A stretch of 64,000 nt of DNA, taken from positions 54,124,627 through 54,188,626 of the forward strand of contig CM026554.1 in assembly GCA_015143295.1 (NCBI GenBank), in the 5' to 3' direction. Under the pieces are notes generated by a model. It did not search any database. It was not told the DNA's origin and saw only the letters and a list, made by a program, of their open reading frames with translations. Position numbers and translations under genes: made by a program. How positions within the stretch are numbered: the first letter of the stretch is position 1; each line of letters opens with the position of its first letter. This DNA comes from Tetracentron sinense (taxonomy: Eukaryota > Streptophyta > Magnoliopsida > Trochodendrales > Trochodendraceae). Positions 1 to 21,775 of the stretch are shown here, in pieces.

Positions 1-393
1 ACTTTGAGTTCTTGCGATTCGGCCTTGGCTGCACAACAAATTGCAGATATCGCCGAAGGTGATAACCGTGGTCTTGCACTCCTATTACCCATAATTCCAG
101 CCATTGCTTGGGTGCTCTATAACATCCTCCAGCCGGCTCTTAACCAAATTAACCGAATGCAGAACAAGAAAGGTGTAATTGTAGGACTCGGGCTCGGTGG
201 GTTGACTGCGTCGAGCTTTGTCTCAACGCCTTATGCGTCGGCAAGTGAAATGGCCGTGATTGCCGATGCGTCATCGTCGAACGATAACCGAGGATTGCTT
301 CTGTTGTTTGTTGTGGCCCCGGCTATTCTTTGGGTGCTCTACAACATTCTTCAACCTGCTTTGAACCAGCTCAATAGAATGAGGTCTGAGTAA
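1..393 (+). CDS. psbY: Photosystem II core complex protein PsbY, chloroplastic (3' part of gene)
   Basis: Nuclear gene for a precursor that is cut into two small one-helix thylakoid proteins found at the edge of photosystem II near cytochrome b559. The frame is already open at base 1, so the transit peptide and start lie upstream of the window; 130 residues are visible. Two homologous units are seen. Each starts with DNRG, continues into one hydrophobic helix containing WVLYNILQPALNQ, and ends in a basic NRM segment. They are separated by a glycine-rich hydrophobic stretch (GLGLGGLTASS) ending in an Ala-Ser-Ala type processing site. This two-unit layout with an internal thylakoid-transfer signal is the known plant PsbY organisation. 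The C-terminus MRSE and the TAA stop at 391-393 are normal. No intron is seen in this part. Identification is confident from the duplicated motif. Confidence 0.95.
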   Translation, partial: TLSSCDSALAAQQIADIAEGDNRGLALLLPIIPAIAWVLYNILQPALNQINRMQNKKGVIVGLGLGGLTASSFVSTPYASASEMAVIADASSSNDNRGLLLLFVVAPAILWVLYNILQPALNQLNRMRSE

Positions 394-511
394 GACAGGA
401 TGCGTGGATGATTCCAATGTTGTTGCACCCCATCTTGTGAGAATTTTCACGTTTTTTTTTAATTTTTGTTTCATGTTGGAAGATGATTGCTCATATGAGT
501 TCTCTCATGGA

Positions 512-569
512 TTGTTATAAGTAAAAAAAAAAAGGGTAAATTGTTATAAGTAAAAAAAAAAGGGTAAAT
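512..569 (+). repeat. Tandem duplication of 29 bp at the left MULE border
   Basis: The string TTGTTATAAGT plus an A-run plus AGGGTAAA occurs at 512-540 and again from 541. The second copy runs into the terminal inverted repeat of the Mutator-like element. The first copy therefore carries the first bases of that repeat (GGGTAAATTG) outside the element. Confidence 0.85.
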
Positions 570-646
570 TGCACTCACCTCCCTGAGGTTTGGTCAAATT
601 GCAGAGACCTCCCCTCTAGTTTCTAAAATAGCACTGCCCTCCCCTG
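562..646 (+). repeat. Left terminal inverted repeat of the MULE
   Basis: 85 bp that match the reverse complement of 7144-7229, with a one-base length difference in a C-run and one substitution. Similarity becomes patchy further inside the element. Confidence 0.9.
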
Positions 647-1192
647 TGTTTTAATTGTAAGTAGCAAACTCCCCGTTCACTTAATCTACCGTTAGTAAGG
701 TGGATGAACTTTGATGATGTCATGCTCTAAACATTTTAAAATACCTAAATTGCCCTTGAAAGTGCCAGTGTGTGCCATTTCTAAGTCTTGCAAGTGTAAA
801 TGCAATTTACACACGACCTAAATGGCTTCAGTTATATGGAAGTATGATATGATTTGCAAGTTTCATATATTGACCTCAAGTTTATTGCCATTTAGTTTGA
901 AGTAATTCTTGATTCTTGAGTGGAATTATTTTCATATATTGACCTCAAGTTTCATATTTTGGGCACAATGTTCACCCTAATAGGCTACCAAACACCATGC
1001 GCAACAAGAATACTTCCCTTTAGCAATGTGATATTAGCTTTGAAGTTTAAAGAATGCACCCCTCATTATCACCAACACAGATATGAGAATTTTCCTTCCA
1101 CTATTTACTTTGAAAAAAAAAAGAGACCAAATTCTCTACAATTATGTCCACGTTGTTCTCTCTGTTTATACAATAGAAGAAAAAAAATGGCT

Positions 1193-1424
1193 CTATCTAG
1201 ATCCCAAACCGAGTCTACAAATATCCGCGGCCGGAGGAGAGTCCCAAATAACAGTACGTTTCTTCATATCCTCAAAATCTTGGACACACCCAGTCAACGC
1301 TAACTTCCCAACTCTATTCCTAACGGAAGCAAGCTTCTTCCCTGCAACTCGGTCGAAAATCTTCTCCCACCCTTTCTCCCAGTCGGCATGAGCGTCGCAG
1401 AGCTGAAGAGTCCCGTTCCTCCCT
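1193..1424 (-). pseudogene. Unidentified coding-like fragment inside the MULE
   Basis: On the minus strand a frame of about 75 codons is open from 1417 to a TAG at 1195-1193. It has protein-like composition (for example the pieces DAHADWEKGWEKIF, VRNRVGKLALTGC and RTVIWDSPP). It has a higher GC content than the surrounding DNA. An in-frame stop lies just upstream, and a possible splice acceptor (CTAAG) precedes it at about 1423. It runs in the same direction as the transposase. I do not recognise the family. It may be a last exon of a captured host gene or an extra 3' exon of the transposase transcript. Confidence 0.45.
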
Positions 1425-2192
1425 TAGTCTACCTGACAAATACATACCATGAAAATATAAGATAAGCAGTAAGTGTTGCATCCTGCAGTGATGTAAATTT
1501 ACAAAAACCAAAAAAAAGAAGGAATTTAACCGTATTCAAAAGAACAGGAAGTTAAAATCAGGAGTAAATATTATGTGATTTCAAAGTAAGCAGGACAAAA
1601 GAGTCCTGCAGTAATATAAGATAAGCAGTAAGTGCTGCATCCTGGGTGATTTCAGAAATGCAGGACAAAAGAGTTACTGACCTTAATAAGTGAAAATTAG
1701 GAGTAAATATTATGTCCTTAACATCACGAACTCAAGAAAGATTAAAACTCATCTGCAAAAGTTCTCTAACCAGACAACTCACAAGGCTCTTACAGCCAAT
1801 CTTTTGGAACTGCAAACTCATTTTAAAAATTCCCCAACGTGACATTATCTCATTATGAAATTGCAAGTTCTAAAGTAGAACTGATTATAGCATAATAACA
1901 GTAAAATAAATACTAAATCGTATAATGTTAAGTATACCCAAAACAAGTGAAACATTCTAGTTGGGTGAATCTTTTCTTATTAGTTCTGAAAATTTCCTTA
2001 CCACTCTAATTTAAACCCACGATTCAAAGACAAATAGAATTGAAACTCATAAATTATATATAATTGCGATGCAAAAAAGCATGTAATTTAGTTGAATTAA
2101 AACTAATATACCGCAACATTTAATAAAGCCTGAATTCTGACCAAATATTCTAAGTATATATCCAAAGGTTTTAGAATTAATGAAGAACTCAC

Positions 2193-2297
2193 CAACTGCA
2201 AGGTTGTCCTGCTGACGTACTCTTCAGGAGGCCATGAATGCTTTCTACAGTTGAAGAGATTAATCTTCAAAAAACGCTTCCTCTCCACTTCAACCAC
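2193..2297 (-). pseudogene. Captured exon fragment resembling plant non-lysosomal glucosylceramidase (GBA2 type)
   Basis: The minus strand encodes NLFNCRKHSWPPEEYVSR followed by TTLQL. As I recall the family, this closely matches the first residues of plant GBA2-type beta-glucosidases (bile acid beta-glucosidase-like proteins), which start with a similar NLFHCRK-SWPPEEYIS-TLQL segment. The frame ends at a GTGAGT splice donor (exon end 2193), the place expected for the first intron. The ATG expected just before NLF reads as other codons, so the copy probably cannot start translation on its own. It lies inside the MULE in the same orientation as the transposase. The match is from memory over about 25 residues, so the family call is probable rather than certain. 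Confidence 0.6.
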
Positions 2298-2921
2298 GTT
2301 TCAAACCATAACCATCAAAATTCTCCGAAAATGCAAATCATCAAACAAAATCTTTCACAAACCAGAACTTCTCCAGATTTCAAACAAATCTAATCAAGCA
2401 CATCTCCAAAAGATAACGTCGACACAAACACCATTAACATTTAATATCATTAATTAGTAAATATGTCCAAAAAAATATAAAAATGTCAAAAATAAACATG
2501 TCCAAAAGACATCCATAGTATAGATCTAGAGCCCCACAAACAAAAAATAATGGGGTCACCCAGCTCTAACATCCAAAGTAAACATGTCCTATCCATCTAT
2601 AGTATGCTATATGTATTATGTCCAAAAATCAGCTGTTATCGCTTTAAGTTAGCCCTTCCTCCAGAAGTACAAAAAACAACTACAAACACAGATAAAATAT
2701 CATATTAGAAAGGGTACAAACTTCATCTTACACCTACTTACAAAAATATATGTCCAACAATGTTACTTAGTACAAGTATGACCCTATACCTGTTTATGTC
2801 CACCATTAGGACATGCTCATAGAATACGCATGGTCCTATACATGAGGTCTCTCCCCCTATATTACACAAGTTAAACATGAGAAATATAAGCAAGAATTAA
2901 AATATAAGCAATACTTGAAAC

Positions 2922-5369
2922 TTAACAAATTAGGTAATGACTTCTTACTTGGTGTCTTGCATTTAATGAGCGTCTACTTTTCACAGGACCTCGCTGACAT
3001 GTACGTTTGTTGTGTCCAAACTGCTTACAAATGCAACACTTAATAGTGCTTGATCTACGAGATTGGCTCCCTGGGGTAGGCTCATCTGGTTCTCTTCTCC
3101 TATTTTTCTTAGGTCGACCAGGCAAGCGACGAAGGGGTGGAGGTTCTACTTGATTGTGATTTCCTACTGGCCACGTGCTTTCATCAGATAATGGGTGTAT
3201 GATACCACCATGTGCCTTCAAATATGTCTCCTTGGAGTAGTACCCATCACAATAATCTTCAATATTGGCCCTTTTACGTGCAATACATGCAGCTAAATGC
3301 TTACATGGCAGTCCAGATATTTCCCAAGCTCGACAACTACATGATTTAGCATCAAAATTCACCACAAATCTAGAAGAACCTTCAGTCACCTCATACTCCT
3401 CACCTCCGGCAAATACAACTACACACGTCCTTGAGTCTTGTTTGATGACATCCATTTTGCGTTTTATCTTAGGGGTCACTAAGCTCTCCCAAGAACATGC
3501 TTTTTCATACCTACATTGAATCCTATCCATTAACTTGACCCTTATAGAATCAACCAAAGTAAGGATTGGTTTGTCCCTAAGATCGCCAATCCACTGATTG
3601 AAGGATTCAGTCATGTTATTTGTTACGTGATCACTCCTCACTTTGGGGTCAAATGCATGCCTAGACCATGAATGCATAGGTTTTTCCATCAACCATTCGT
3701 AAGCTTCTTTTCTTTCTCTTTTCATTTTATCCATAGCAAAATTAAAGACCCTATTATTATATGCTCGAGCAGCAACCCAAAAGAAATTCCTCAATTTCAA
3801 CCCTGGAAACCTTTTTTTGAAATTGTTGTATAGATGCCTACAACACACTCGATGCGTAGCTTCTGGGATGATTTCATTAATGGCTTCCACAATACCCTAT
3901 AAAAAATATTTACATCACCCAACTATACCTTGCATTGAAAAAAAAATTAACATAATAATTATAAAACTATAAACATTGCATACCTTTTGTCGGTCAGTCA
4001 TGAAACACATAGGCCTTTGATGTGTAACTGTCCCAATGATAGTGTGTAGATAATGGAGAAAAAAATTCCAACTTTCCTTGGTTTCACCCTCCACAATAGC
4101 AAAAGCCACGGGAAATAATCTATTATTCTCATCAAGTGCAATGGCTGCCAACAACACTCCACCATATGGGCCCTTTAAATGGCACCCATCCAATCCTATA
4201 AAAGGTCTACATCCTTCTAAAAACTCATTCTTCATGGCTTCAAAGCAAATGAAAAATCTCTTGAATGTGGGATTTACATTGAGGCTGAGCCGATCATATT
4301 CAATCTTCACCAAGCTACCGGAGTTTGTCTCTCGAACCACTTCAGCATACACATACATTTTATTATATGACTTGCCATGGTTGCCCTCAATTTCATCCCT
4401 TGCTTTCACCCGTGCTCTATACAATTGCCATTTTTTGCTTGTTTCAATCCCATAAGTCTCACGAATTTCAGATCGTATACCATCTATCTTCATAGTAGGA
4501 TTAGCACGCAACCTTTTTGCAAGCTTCTTAGCAATCCACGCCGAGGTAGCATTAGTATTCTTGGTAGCTCTCACACATGTGTGCTCAGACTGAAATGTCT
4601 TGATCTTATAAGTTACCCCATCTGGCAAAGGAGATGCATGAATGCGCCATAGACATCCCTCACCTGAACAATGTGCAGTTACCCTTGCTTTCTCATTCTT
4701 ATCTCTAACAATTTCAAAGCCTTCTTGAATGATATAGTCCCTCAAAGCCTCCCTAAACTCTGTCACATTGCCAAACAACATGCCTACCTCCAATGAAACC
4801 TTCATACCCTCTTGCACTTCAAATTGTTTTCCACACATAAACCTATTAATATCATCACACTCATCATCAGAATCTGAATTAGAAATAAAATCAAAATCAT
4901 CATTGGATTGATAATCAGACAACACATCATTGTTCTCTTGCCGTCCACCCCCCAAATTAGATGCAATCATCTCACAAGCACTAATAGTATTCTCATTATC
5001 ACTACCAACCCTCCTCTCATCATCAACACTAAAATCACACTCTTTATCAAATATCACATTATCACCAACATCACCACTATCAATCTCTGAAGCCCCGAGA
5101 AAGACATGTATATTACTTATTCTTCGATATAGCTCGAACATCCGTAACACATCATCAGTAGAGGTAACATCCATTAAATCACCAAACCCAAGCATGGCAC
5201 AATGCATGGTGAGTACCATGCCCATAGTAGAAGGTTGATTACCTAGTGTCGCTTCACAAACATCAGTGAACATGTCCATGTAACAATATCGATCTGGGTC
5301 CACTTTTGTGATTATAAAAACTTTATCCATATAGTGGATAACCAAATTGTGCAAATAAATTGAAGCCAT
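2922..5369 (-). CDS. MuDR-family transposase (two coding exons)
   Basis: Transposase that cuts and inserts the surrounding Mutator-like element. Coding exons are 5369-3984 and 3896-2922, joined at a phase-0 GT-AG intron (3983-3897); the join restores the conserved TDRQKG motif. The product is 786 residues, a normal MURA-like size. The start ATG at 5369 was chosen because a TTTTTTTTCAG splice acceptor lies 6 bases upstream and the family-like sequence begins there. Domains: acidic N-terminus; MuDR N-terminal domain (about 196-265); MULE transposase domain with catalytic-type Asp394 (GLDGCHLKG) and Asp459 (MTDRQKG); later NNMTESFN; SWIM zinc finger Cys648, Cys650, Cys660, His662; GRPKK AT-hook-like segment; CCHC knuckle Cys749, Cys752, His757, Cys762. 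No internal stop is seen. A CAA|GTAAGA donor near 2956 could splice out the last residues to a further 3' exon. Confidence 0.9.
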
Positions 5370-5375
5370 TGAGAC

Positions 5376-7143
5376 CTGAAAAAAAATTCCAAAATAAGAA
5401 AAGACAATTACTTTTGAATCAATGTAAAATGCATTATAACAATATATCAAAATGGGAAGACAGATATAAGAAATTAAACAAGTCATAACAAATGCCCCAA
5501 CCTATCCAGAAAACTATCTGTAGAACTAATGTTTACAAGAATCCAATTTTTGCAACCTTTCAACATCATACATCCAAAATGGATGATCAAATAAGAACTA
5601 AATAAACAATCAAAATTAGGAAAAAAACATTTTTTTTTTTCCACAGCCACGAACTTGAACAATAAAATGATCATAGAAAGAGAATACTGAATGATACCAT
5701 CTATTTCTCAAACTTGCTTCACCATCTTTTATATTTATTTAAAAAAAATTATCCAAGCATTAATAACTTAAAAACAAATATCCAGATTTAACCATAGAGA
5801 ACCCTTATTTACTTCCTTTAAGTTAAAAAAAGAATTTTAATGATGTTAGTCTCTGTGTACACTGGAAGAGGAGGGATGGGGGTTGCAGACCCGCCTGGCT
5901 AGGGTTTTTTAGGGGATTGCCAAATTTGAAGAAACGTTATCGTACCGATGCTCCATCTACAGCAGTGGAAGGAGGGTTACTTCTTTAGATTAGGCAAACT
6001 TTCATTTTCGAGAACAGAGGTCGCCCTCCTCAAAGGACCTACTATTTTCTAAGAATATTTCAATAATATCTATCATTTCGGGTTTGATCCTAAGACATAT
6101 CCTCAAACCCTAACAGCCCAACTCCACAACCAAAATTCTTCAAAACTCCAAACCTTGACAAACCCAAACCAAAATCTGCACAAGCTGAAACCTAATTTCT
6201 CACAACCCTCAAGAACTAAAAGGTCCTATCCAGAATCCAAAACCTGAGAAACCCAAATCCCTAAAACCCCACCTTTACTAAACCAAACAAACCCAATTTC
6301 TTTCAAATCCCAAGAACACCCGGTCCTCAACAACCCAAATTGGAAACCACAAGTCCTCAAAATCTCAAATAAAAATAAGTCAGTTTCCAAGATCAGATCG
6401 CTTATGGTAGATAGGATAACCACAGAAATCCTAAAATCTCATAAATGTACAAATGAAGACGGACTATAAATTTGAAAATATAAACAAAACCCTCGATTTG
6501 GAAATTTGGCACGTTAAAACCAAGATCAGAATTTTCTCTAACCTGACTATATCCCATGGGCTATCTTGATTGTGTGGAATGAGGGTATCTGCATGGCCCA
6601 TGGGATTTAGTCAGACCCCATCATTTGGCAAAGTATGAAGCAAAGTACTTTTTGATATTTGCTTTGGTAGTTGGTGCGCCTGACCTTGATATAGAGAAGC
6701 ACCAGATTGATCTTACAAGGTTGCTTCTGCTTATTTACTTTGGAGGAGTTGGAGGAAGAGAAGAGCTCGGGACAGTGGACGACAAGCTTTAAGCTCTCCG
6801 AGTGTGGACGGATGATCAGAAAACAACCTTGTAAACAACTACCCAAAAGACAATCACCAAACCCTAGCATAAATAAGAAAGTTTTAAGAGAAGAAGAAGA
6901 GGGAACTTACCGCGGATGCCGGGTGTGGACGGATGCCGGCGTTGATGGTGGCCGGTGTTGAAGGAGGCTGGACGGAAGTTAGTTGTGGTGAGGTGAAGAG
7001 TTGATGAGAGAGCTTGAGACTTTTGAGGCGTGTTTTTTTGTTTTGAGCAGAGAGTTTTTTGTGTTAAAAGAAAGGCTTAAACTCACATAGGGGTAAAATA
7101 GTAAAACTACATTCCGTTAACGGTGTTAACTTGATTAACCTGA
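5376..7143 (-). promoter_or_regulatory. Leader and 5' intron region of the MULE transposase gene
   Basis: No protein is recognised here. On the minus strand a GC-richer stretch (about 7000-6911) ends in a good donor (CCGCG|GTAAGTTCCC, exon end 6911). The acceptor just before the transposase ATG is at 5376. This suggests an untranslated first exon spliced over a roughly 1.5-kb leader intron, with the promoter in or next to the right terminal repeat. Extra leader exons cannot be excluded. Confidence 0.5.
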
Positions 7144-7229
7144 CAGGGGAGGGCAGTGCTATTTTAAAAACTAGAGGGGAGGTCTCTGCAATTTGACCAA
7201 ACCTCAGGGGAGGTGAGTGCAATTTACCC
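7144..7229 (-). repeat. Right terminal inverted repeat of the MULE
   Basis: 86 bp, reverse complement of the left repeat; the element ends at ...GCAATTTACCC followed by 10 A. Confidence 0.9.
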
Positions 7230-7500
7230 AAAAAAAAAAGAGTAAATCATAGTCAAAGGTAATTACCAAAAAAAAAAAAAATCATAGTCAAAGGTGACTC
7301 TAAATATAGAAGTTCTAGTGAACACCTCTCCCTAACAACTTGACACATGACTTTTTTTTTTTTTTTGGACTTTGCTATAGAGACGCTCCACCTGAAATCC
7401 CGTGCTTTTAAAGCATGTTCTCGGTGGTCTCGGCCCTAAGAGGGTCTCCTTAGCTTTATCCTATTTTTTTAGAAACTAACCCGTTGGTTGTATGTATAAT

Positions 7501-7764
7501 TTTTTTTGGTTGAACACAATAACACCACAACGTGTTACTGTAGGCAATTGAAAGGAAAACACACCCCACACACCGCTTACCTCATGAAGCTTCACTCAAG
7601 TGAACCTCAAAACGGGTACCAACCGTTTGAGGCCCAATGGTACTTTATGAGGGAAAGTAGCTGGATGAACACATCTGAGGTGGGACTAAAGACTGACCTT
7701 GATTGTTTTTTTGGTTGAACACAATAACACCACGAGGTGTTACTGTAGGCAATTGAAAGGAAAA
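7501..7764 (+). repeat. Direct repeat of 59 bp spaced 205 bp apart
   Basis: 7501-7559 and 7706-7764 both read T7-GGTTGAACACAATAACACCAC through GTGTTACTGTAGGCAATTG to AAAGGAAAA, with only two differences. The 146 bp in between is unrelated. No gene is seen. The pair could be two copies of a small transposon end or the product of a local duplication. Confidence 0.85.
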
Positions 7765-18290: not shown

Positions 18291-19344
18291 ATTTGAAGAT
18301 ATAATCATTCTCATATTGCTACTATAACAAAATTGAAAATGGTTTTTTACAAAGAGTGTCCTACGGTCATATGAGCTTTTTATTTAATAGCACCGATGTA
18401 ATTAATATAATGTGTATTGTCATTGAAAGGAGGTGGCTCACCCATGTTAATGTTTATGGTCATGTTTCCATATGCTAATGGTACTTATTGTAAATAATAT
18501 TGGTAATGATGACATCACCTAAACACTAATAAGATTTAAATATTTTCTTTTAAAATCTTGTATGCATTTTGGTATACAATTTATACGAAATTATGTAAGC
18601 ATATTAGTATGCATTTCTTGCATATACTTGATTTGTCTGCTACTTTATTGGTTCGAACTTTGCCTGGTACTCAGTTCTACTGTAATCGGTTTGCAAAACT
18701 TCTTTGTACAATTTGCATATTTTGTATTTAATTGGTTGAACATTTGATATGTGTAAATTGTTGCGTGTCTTGCAATTTTAATTTGATCAACTTGCATGAC
18801 AAATTATTTTATTTTGGTTATGGGTCATATCTAATGACATCTTGTTGTTTAGCTAGTTCTATCTTTTTTTTGGTTGATAGCTAGTTCTATCCGCGAGACA
18901 TGTTTTATATGTTTTGGTAACAAAGAATACGACACACTCATAATGACACTATTGTGGTTTTGAAGCATGCTAATGGTAATAGAATGAATAGAGAGAATCT
19001 CTACCGGTCAAATGGGTAAATGACATACTTTATAAATATTAATATTTCATATTATTGAGATTTGAGAAACTTATTTTGTGATTTATCATGTTATCAATGC
19101 TTAATATTTTCTGTTATTTCATTTTTTATTGGATTATTATATGAGAGTATTGTACACTTCATTAAATTTTAATTGTTATCAAGTGGCTTGTGCAATGCAG
19201 AAAGATTGGCAGATAAAGATTGGTGTAACTCACCAAAACTGTAAGGTCACACTCTTGATGAATTCTTGAAATAGTGGGGGAGATGAGCTAAAAAATAATT
19301 AATACAATGACAAAGGAGAAATAAGATATTTCAGGCAAATAAAT

Positions 19345-21775
19345 TCACTAATCGAATGTCATATCAGTGATAAACATGAAAAGTGTATTACTTGTAGTAA
19401 GTGCAAGATAACGAGAGCCTTGTTTCATAGAGTCAAAAGGTCCACTAAAACTCTAGATTTAATTCACACTGATATTTGTGAAATGACTAATTTGTCCCGA
19501 GGAGGTAAGCGATACTTCATCACCTTCATTGATGATGCATTCAGATTCTCATATGTATATCTTATACGAACGAAAGATGAAGCTGTTGAAAAGTTCAAAA
19601 TGTTCAAAGCAGAAGTCGAAAACCAACTTAAAAGAATATCAAGATTCTGAGATCCGATAGAGGTGGATAATTTATTGACACTAAATTTACAAAATTTTGT
19701 GAAATCAACGGGATTCAACATGAGATGTTTGCTCCCTACACACCACAACAGAATGAGATTGTTGGACGCAAAAATCAAACTTTAACTGAGATGGTAAACA
19801 CAATGTTAACCAGCTCAGGAGCACCTGCTAACCTTTGGGGTAAAGTCTTATTGACAGTATGTCACATTTTGAACCGCGTACCTCAAAGAAAGTCAAAAAT
19901 TGTTCTTTATGAGTTATGGAAAGGTAGAAAGCCGAATCTAAAATATCTCAGGTTTTGGAGTTGTCTTGCTCAAGTTAGGTTACCTAACCTTAACTAGCCT
20001 AAGGTAGGTCCCAAGGGAACTGATAGTGTCCTAATTTGTTACTCTTTGACAAGCAAATCATATCGGTTTCTAAACTTATAAACTTCTACCCCCTATACTA
20101 TAGTCGAATCCGTTAATGCAGATTTCTTTGAAAAATATTTTTCCATTTAAGAAAATTTTGGAAATAGCGGGGGTGCATCCGGAGTTCAGTGCTAAGAGAA
20201 AAGAGGCTGAAACTTCTATTTTGCTGGATCCTCATAGAAGTTGTAGAACTAAGGTTTCGAAAGATTTTGGTCCTAATTTCATCACATATATTGTGAATAA
20301 AGAACCTGTCAGTTATGCTGAAGCTATGACATCAAATGATGCTACATTTTGGAATGAAGCAATAGTTGATGAAATGCATTCTATATTGTCTGGCAACACT
20401 TGGACTTTAGTGAATCTTCTTCCTGGAAGCAGGGCTATTGGATGCAAATGGATCTTTAAGAAAAAGTTAAAACCTGATGGTATAGTTGCTAAGTTCAAGG
20501 CAAGGCTGATTGTTAAGGAATTCAGACAAATAATGAGTTTCGATTATTTCGACACCTATAGCCCAGTAGTAAGGATGACCACTATTTGATCGTTGATAGC
20601 TCTGGCTGCGATCAATGACTTGATCATCCACCAGATGGATGTCAAGACCGCCTTTCTCAATGGTGATCTTGAAGAAGATATATATATGGATCAGCAAGAA
20701 GGTTTTGTCCTGCCAAATAATCATAAGAAAGTGTGTAAATTGTTAAAGTCGTTTTACGGTCTTAAACAAACACCTAAGCAGTGGCACGACAAATTCAAGA
20801 GAATTCTCCTCTCTGATAGCTATCAAATAAATGGTGGTGATATTTACGTGTACAGCAAATTCAAAGAAAATTCTGAAGTTATCATTTGTCTCTTTGTCGA
20901 CGATATGCTAATTTTTGGAACCGATTTGGAAAGTGTTATGAACCCTAAAAGGTTTCTATTCGTTGAATTTTGACATGAAGGATTTGGGAGAAGCTGATGT
21001 AATTCTGGGAATTAAAATCATCAGAAGTAACCAAGAAATTGCTCTATCTCAATCAAATTACATAGAGATATTCCTCGGAAGATTTAATCATCAGTTCGAT
21101 TGCTCCCCTGCCCCAACTCCAGTTTATTCCAATATTAAATTAAACAAGAATGAAGGCAGAATTGTATCTAAACTTGAATACTCTCAAATTATTGGCAGTC
21201 TCATGTATGTCATGCGGTGCACAAGACCGGACATTGCCCAAACAGTGGGCATGTTGTGCAGATACACTAGTAATCCAGGGAAGGTTCATTGGAGAGCACT
21301 TATCAGAGTTCTCAGATACCTCAAGGGTACTTTAACTTATGAGATATATTTTGGGAGAATTCCAACTGTAGTGATGCAACTTGGAACTCATATCCGGATG
21401 AGTCTACATCTGTAACGGCCTGGATATTTACTTTGGGTGGAGGAGCCATATCTTGAAAATCCAAGAAGCAGATGTGCATTACTCATTCAACTATGAAATC
21501 TAAGTTCATCGCCTTGTCATCTGCAGATGAAGAGGTAGAATAGCTCAAGATTATATTGGTAGATATACAAATATGGGGTACACCTGTACCAGCTATCACA
21601 ATTTATTATGACAACCAGGTTGCAATGCTTAAAGCATACAGCGAGAACTACAATGAGAAATTCAGACAAGTTCGTCTGAAGCACAATCATGTGAGGGGTC
21701 TTATAACTGGTGGCAAGATAGTTGTTTAGTATGTTGGCAGATCATTTATCCAAAGGCCTTGACAGACCTTGTGAT
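19345..21775 (+). pseudogene. Copia pol: integrase, reverse transcriptase, RNase H
   Basis: Fragments in several frames. The zinc-binding domain of integrase (ITCSKCKIT) lies near 19390. The integrase core runs 19420-19997 (IHTDICEMTN, ITFIDD, APYTPQQNEIVGRKN). Reverse transcriptase runs about 20290-21400 (NTWTLVNLLPG, WIFKKK, MDVKTAFLNGDLEEDIYM, FYGLKQTPKQWHDKF, CLFVDDML, MKDLGEADVILGIKI, LMYVMRCTRPDIA). RNase H follows to 21775, ending in ADHLSKGL. Lesions seen: a frameshift near 19630, TAA near 19670 where GGE is expected in the SDRGGE motif, TGA at 20587-20589 probably from CGA, a frameshift near 20960, and TAG near 21541. The C-to-T type change is consistent with methylated-cytosine decay. 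Confidence 0.9.

Follow-up and report, generated by a model that had tools for sequence, protein, structure and literature searches.

The window analysed here, 64,000 nucleotides of the Tetracentron sinense genome (C4:54124627-54188626 of an assembly of 1.16 Gb in 1479 contigs), carries at positions 562-7229 a full-length Mutator-like element (MULE) with terminal inverted repeats (TIRs). The element is of the MuDR-like kind, and it combines an open transposase gene with captured pieces of host sequence. Its left TIR (562-647, plus strand, 86 bp) and right TIR (7143-7229, minus strand, 87 bp) are identical in 85 of 87 aligned columns and differ by one substitution and one indel (97.7% in BLAST), in line with the original prediction, made from the letters of the sequence, of a complete MULE with near-identical ends. 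Inward of these repeats, only weak similarity links the two ends of the element. The usual range of MULE TIRs is given as 100-500 bp in the accessible text of PMC3310237, and the present repeats fall just under it. The left TIR has an internal periodicity of ~30 bp; in the first 120 bp of the element, a shift of 30 matches at 51 of 90 positions, with 33 of 85 for the runner-up among shifts 20-49, and this periodicity may reflect repeated binding sites. The element is flanked by a 9-bp target-site duplication (553-561 and 7230-7238; AAAAAAAAA on both sides), a length within the 9-11 bp that characterise MULEs, the left copy of which lies within an A10 run at 552-561. An A10 run is present on both sides, and the duplication is hence homopolymeric with an ambiguous edge. 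Neither an Rfam search at gathering score nor a tRNA scan gave a match, a pattern scan of viral contigs gave none, and a literature search with the start of the TIR returned no related paper.

The transposase gene is on the minus strand (5369-3984 joined to 3896-2922) and comprises 786 codons plus a stop. As predicted, it has no internal stop. Its two stop-free runs span 528 and 324 aa, and in 300 mononucleotide shuffles of the element no such run exceeded 173 aa. Exon 1 (3984-5369) contains DBD_Tnp_Mut and the MULE domain [PF03108, the MuDR DNA-binding domain, E=1.2e-18; PF10551, the start of the MULE domain, E=9.3e-11], and exon 2 (2922-3896) contains the end of the MULE domain, a SWIM finger, and a zinc knuckle [PF10551, E=2.9e-06; PF04434, E=2.9e-08]. 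The joined product matches PF10551 with E=2.5e-24. Residues D394, D459, and E559, which we take to be the catalytic triad of the MULE transposase, are present, together with a CCHC knuckle at 749. The predicted intron between the exons (3897-3983, 87 nt) has GT-AG ends; of 11 relatives tried, eight align there, with GT kept in all eight and AG in seven. A further intron is predicted in the 5′ untranslated region (UTR) of the gene (5376-6910, minus strand), with donor CGCG/GTAAGT and acceptor TTTTCAG/GTCTCAATG. Among the same number of relatives tried, its donor GT (6911/6910, near the right TIR) is kept in 9/9 that align, while the acceptor (5376/5375, upstream of the transposase start) reads CAG in 7/10 and CAA in 3/10. 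A PDB search with the transposase gave no match up to E=1, and a comparison of exon 1 with collections of viral contigs and genome contigs gave 2 and 25 candidate stretches, respectively, none of which was confirmed. No paper was found for the HSWPPEE motif, and no ULP1 match was seen in the transposase or in the 11 segments scanned out of 56 stop-free segments (>=35 aa) outside it. The open frame and its domains suggest that the element is potentially autonomous.

The host sequence lies in two blocks, A and B, and has at least four sources in the genome (contigs C8, C6, C15, and C4), three of which are genes. Three of the donors are on contigs other than that of the window, and the C4 donor is 49 Mb away on the same contig. 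That coding-like fragments had been picked up from the host was part of the original prediction; the DUF7796 fragment is certain from the sequence alone, and genome searches found the other donors. In block A (1009-2404, minus strand), sequence from the start of a GH116/GBA2-type gene on C8 encloses the 3′ end of a DUF7796 gene on C6. From C8:18.880 Mb come 1031-1065, 1418-1554 (96%), 1639-2258 (87%, with gaps), and 2255-2404 (79%, with gaps), and from C6:48.589 Mb come 1097-1143 (94%) and 1181-1422 (donor C6:48589238-48589479, 95%). The stretch 1639-2404 corresponds to the 5′ end of the C8 gene, with 5′UTR-like sequence, the first coding exon without its ATG, the native splice donor, and the start of intron 1, whereas 1418-1554 comes from downstream of the first coding exon of this locus. 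The exon piece itself occupies 2193-2255, with the native donor kept at 2193/2192. The DNA of the C8 locus gives MVSGTLFNCRKHSWPPEEYVSRATLQL as the first coding exon, followed by GTGAGT. We take this exon to be the GBA2 first exon, an assignment backed by four same-strand segments, lying a few kb downstream, that match PF12215 (36.2, 35.6, 52.9, and 42.6 bits; cutoff 30.2; a fifth, at 16.8 bits, is below it) and by a paralogue on C14 with the same order of pieces. A PDB search with the GBA2-type exon gave no match up to E=10.

The DUF7796 piece in block A (1196-1423, minus strand; PF25072, E=4.3e-27) begins within an exon and contains the last ~75 codons with the native stop, followed by some 3′ flank; its donor is a DUF7796 gene with an open frame of 267 aa (PF25072, E=2.2e-134). 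An AG dinucleotide beside this piece, at 1434-1433, lies in C8-derived sequence. The C8 donor reads TCT at that place, and the AG is therefore not an inherited acceptor. Hence, of the splice signals that the original prediction regarded as retained, the donor of the GBA2-type exon stands and the AG beside the DUF7796 piece does not. The captured GBA2-type piece has also lost ~0.26 kb around the start codon, a loss that suggested an RNA-mediated capture. This route was rejected, because the lost stretch does not have GT-AG ends and part of intron 1 is kept in block A; the presence of intron sequence indicates that the cargo was copied from DNA.

In block B (5806 to ~6801, plus strand), an exon piece of a PMI1-type gene on C15 is split by 0.56 kb of sequence from C4:5.33 Mb. 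The two halves of this NT-C2 exon piece (5832-5970, donor C15:37582885-37583024, 91%; 6616-6799, donor C15:37582700-37582879, 93%), together represent one nearly contiguous donor stretch of 325 bp at C15:37.5827 Mb. This stretch lies within an open frame of 851 aa with PMI1/PMIR and NT-C2 domains (PF21745, E=4.2e-31; PF10358, E=9.8e-21). Between the halves are the sequence from C4 (5984-6539, donor C4:5327751-5328309, 95%) and a 53-bp short repeat (6560-6612) that is also found on C7, C12, C10, C1, and C18 (85-92%). A weak PDB match of 6583-6789 to TatC (E=0.64) was rejected as being at chance level, the piece being of the PMI1 type. Block B is enclosed by the predicted 5′UTR intron and block A lies beyond the transposase stop at 2922; neither block thus interrupts the coding sequence of the transposase.

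Related copies, which the original prediction proposed to look for, exist in the genome. The whole-element search scored the best 40 of 3135 candidates, and all copy counts are lower bounds. Fourteen family loci (L009-L022; L019 and L020 adjoin each other and could be a single element) were aligned to the element, together with the donor locus L023; both ends are readable in nine copies, the window copy and eight others. A more distant subfamily is also present, at 82-85% DNA identity. The sister copy L009 (C9:5784166-5791226) represents the same element with the same cargo, inserted elsewhere and flanked by a 9-bp duplication of its own, and its blocks A and B are 98.6 and 97.8% identical to those of the window copy, respectively. 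In L009, a 128-bp stretch is replaced by ~0.5 kb of other sequence, which inflates its indel count. Among the eight other copies with both ends, an exact A/T-only 9-bp direct duplication is present in seven, and L014 has two mismatches; the ends of L011 and L014 were shifted by 1-2 bases after inspection of the flanks. L009 sits in a T run, where the duplication edge cannot be fixed, as for the window copy. The left 9-bp target copy is A/T-only in 9/9 copies with both ends, a possible target preference.

Two stretches of the element, 1009-2404 and 5806-6842, have no counterpart in the relatives, save in L009. At the site of block A, 13 copies were compared (the window copy, L009, and 11 others; L013 and L019 were omitted, as the site is not covered in them). 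Each of the 11 others has a native segment of ~0.23 kb, shortened to 177 bp in one and with ~0.34 kb extra in another, and block A, which replaces this segment in the window copy, is therefore derived. The original prediction had named fragments native to all relatives as part of what would refute it; block A is absent from 11/11 readable other copies. Block B gave no match in the eight other copies compared (L010-L017) and is common only to L009 among nine; its right edge is placed at ~6801/6802, where the L013 alignment starts (at 6802). The range of L015 at this site was set by eye, as its right end did not align. At the block B site, L010, L011, and L013 share one content and L014 and L017 another, with L012 and L015 partly sharing these; the contents of L010-L017 may be other captured pieces. 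The native segment at the block A site (1049-1281 in L010) is open on the minus strand over a stretch (CEVMPFKHLDSWIEMVHFNEEKSHGAQTTLAVQAL in L011) of which an old C2 copy retains part; this stretch may be an older captured exon or may have arisen by chance. Capture of this segment as an exon from a gene at C2:1167.7 kb was considered and rejected, because, by eye, the C2 stretch is similar to the left part of the MULE as well; it is more likely an older MULE-like copy.

The original prediction also described the element as recently active and autonomous. In part, this description holds. Because the two TIRs of a DNA transposon may differ from the outset, their near-identity was rejected as a clock; recency thus rests on the terminal branch. 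In a tree of nine coding alignments, the window copy and L009 form a clade (support 0.999), and the terminal branch of the window copy (0.0055) is the shortest of the nine, the other eight ranging from 0.014 to 0.050. In each of the eight other long copies, stops, frameshifts, or both disrupt the frame. Since the split from L009, the window copy has acquired 12 coding changes (11 nonsynonymous, one synonymous) and L009 40 (26 nonsynonymous, 11 synonymous, and three stops), while their shared stem carries 11 nonsynonymous and seven synonymous changes. In a census of exon 1, in which the best 92 of 843 candidates were scored, seven matches cover at least residues 4-462, and two of these are stop-free: the window copy and C14:21624732 (78%), in which exon 2 matches in two different frames. 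The window copy is thus young, and its frame is open; activity and autonomy are the inferred part of the description.

The left flank contains a 29-bp tandem duplication (507-535/536-564) that joins host flank to the element's first bases and has ATTG at its edges (by eye). It includes element bases and should therefore postdate the insertion; it looks like slippage after insertion. Further to the left, window positions 1-395 hold the 3′ end of a plus-strand gene with two repeats of the motif WVLYNILQPALNQ. The gene resembles what we take to be the plastid protein PsbY, has paralogues on C10 (two), C18, and C23, and ends such that the MULE starts ~170 bp past its stop. On the other side, two 59-bp repeats, 97% alike and 205 bp apart, lie in window 7501-7764, which has many genomic relatives, several of them side by side at C2:32.64 Mb. 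Remains of a Copia-type retrotransposon, with integrase- and reverse-transcriptase-like frames recognised by eye, are present at 19303-21415.

Collectively, the window most probably holds a full-length TIR-MULE that is potentially autonomous and that, in a recent ancestor, acquired pieces of several host loci through copying at the DNA level, a reading that we hold with considerable confidence. Both blocks are nested (C8-C6-C8 and C15-C4-C15), and at two junctions the aligned pieces overlap by 4-5 bp (1418-1422 and 2255-2258). In the model that we propose, excision or breakage would leave a gap, and during its repair copying would leave the element for unlinked host templates and then return to it, generating the nested fragments with C8 around C6 and C15 around C4. 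Gap repair with template switching is a route discussed for Pack-TIRs in the available text of PMC8277862. With block B falling within the predicted 5′UTR intron and block A past the stop, the transposase would stay whole. The loaded copies sit at different sites, which implies that the loaded element would then have moved at least once, with a cargo that would be mostly passive.

Several points weigh against this reading. Autonomy and activity are inferred from the open frame, the domains, and the conserved splice sites, and the evidence for the gap-repair route lies in the junctions. The ratio of 11 nonsynonymous to one synonymous change on the branch of the window copy gives no sign of purifying selection, such that the open frame may simply be young, and the 11:7 of the stem is at most a weak sign of constraint. 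Moreover, an empty site, suggested as a check in the original prediction, was not readable: a search with 7240-7480 yielded no second match among the best 40 of its 2617 candidates, and the paralogues of the left flank on C10, C18, and C23 extend no further than position 458 of 551 and do not reach the insertion point.

One alternative is that the loaded copies owe their movement to a transposase supplied in trans by another family member, the frame of the window copy being open merely by its youth and not expressed. With only 12 coding substitutions on this branch and their 11:1 ratio, and with ~0.5 stops expected at 0.5% divergence, an open frame would be unsurprising. Exon 1 is open, in addition, in many other MULE-like frames at 32-53% identity, which belong to other families or to host genes. 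Against movement in trans, none of the eight other long copies examined has an intact frame, and the sole other full-length stop-free exon 1, among the best 92 candidates of the census, changes frame in exon 2. We regard movement in trans as unlikely, though as an account to be taken seriously. Successive insertions could likewise have produced the nesting of C15 around C4 and of C8 around C6, the host fragments then being later, independent arrivals in two existing copies rather than products of repair. Against this stand the same composite cargo in both copies, at 97.8-98.6% identity, in elements that are sisters in the transposase tree; a native segment that is replaced, not split; and junctions in which, where inspected by eye, no duplications or terminal repeats were seen. 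This explanation is thus very improbable. Hardly any credence attaches to the idea that the cargo is a new functional chimeric gene, in which the GBA2-type exon is spliced to the DUF7796 piece. The two are on the same strand, the native donor at 2193/2192 is kept, and the AG at 1434-1433 is absent from the donor locus; yet the start codon of the GBA2-type exon is deleted and a TAA directly precedes the DUF7796 frame. An in-frame chimeric GBA2-DUF7796 protein was accordingly rejected, with its start lost and a stop in the way.

Returning to capture by DNA-level copying into a potentially autonomous element, a broader proposal can be put forward tentatively, and we would sooner doubt it than assert it: a live self-moving MULE might load and carry host fragments without losing its own gene, copying errors being tolerated in the long 5′UTR intron and beyond the stop, and out-and-back switching between unlinked templates might build nested cargo. 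Irrespective of this proposal, the locus offers an unusually complete record of gene capture in one genome, with a loaded copy, a loaded sister, unloaded relatives that show the native state, and the donors. It permits tests of the capture route, through the junctions and the order of events, and of the compatibility of cargo with self-movement. If the broader proposal is true, autonomous elements would be a missed source of gene shuffling. In the packFinder scheme, as given in the part of PMC8903248 seen, any transposase match leads to the label "autonomous" before gene matches are considered; an element such as the present one would thus not be counted there as a gene carrier.

How, then, does the element relate to known systems? 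It resembles the Pack-MULEs of rice, maize, tomato, and others in carrying host fragments, including introns, between MULE TIRs with ~9-bp duplications, and differs from them in its full transposase frame of 786 aa. Pack-MULEs are described as nonautonomous in the accessible part of PMC3310237, and Pack-TYPE elements likewise in that of PMC8903248. With its transposase frame, the window element is therefore not filed as a Pack-MULE despite its Pack-MULE-like cargo, and no paper was found in the literature for an "autonomous Pack-MULE" with transposase. KAONASHI (KI-MULE) and other MULEs that carry ULP1 also unite a transposase with sequence of host origin, according to the available portions of PMC13317346 and PMC2528002. 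Their cargo, as described there, is a ULP1 domain and their copy number is high, and KI-MULEs are of the non-TIR kind, whereas the window element carries truncated pieces of other genes and is known from two copies. A further likeness is to class II families of grapevine, in which, according to PMC2528002, non-ULP host exons and introns are present in transposase-bearing families and some are common to several copies. The examples given there include a MULE family with a cellulose synthase piece, Pifvine-3, Cactavine-5, and Hatvine-6, that is, MULE, CACTA, PIF, and hAT elements, and in Cactavine-5 the captured piece is downstream of the transposase ORF, as block A is here. Hence, the combination of a transposase and captured fragments in one element, which the original prediction regarded as notable, has already been published [PMC2528002 and PMC13317346] and is less notable than claimed. 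The grapevine cases differ in family, host, and donors, and section 10 of PMC2528002 does not say that the fragment-bearing copies keep an intact transposase. Compared with them, the donors, the native state, and the position of the cargo relative to the transposase introns are resolved in the window element, a clear and well-resolved example of a phenomenon already known from plants.

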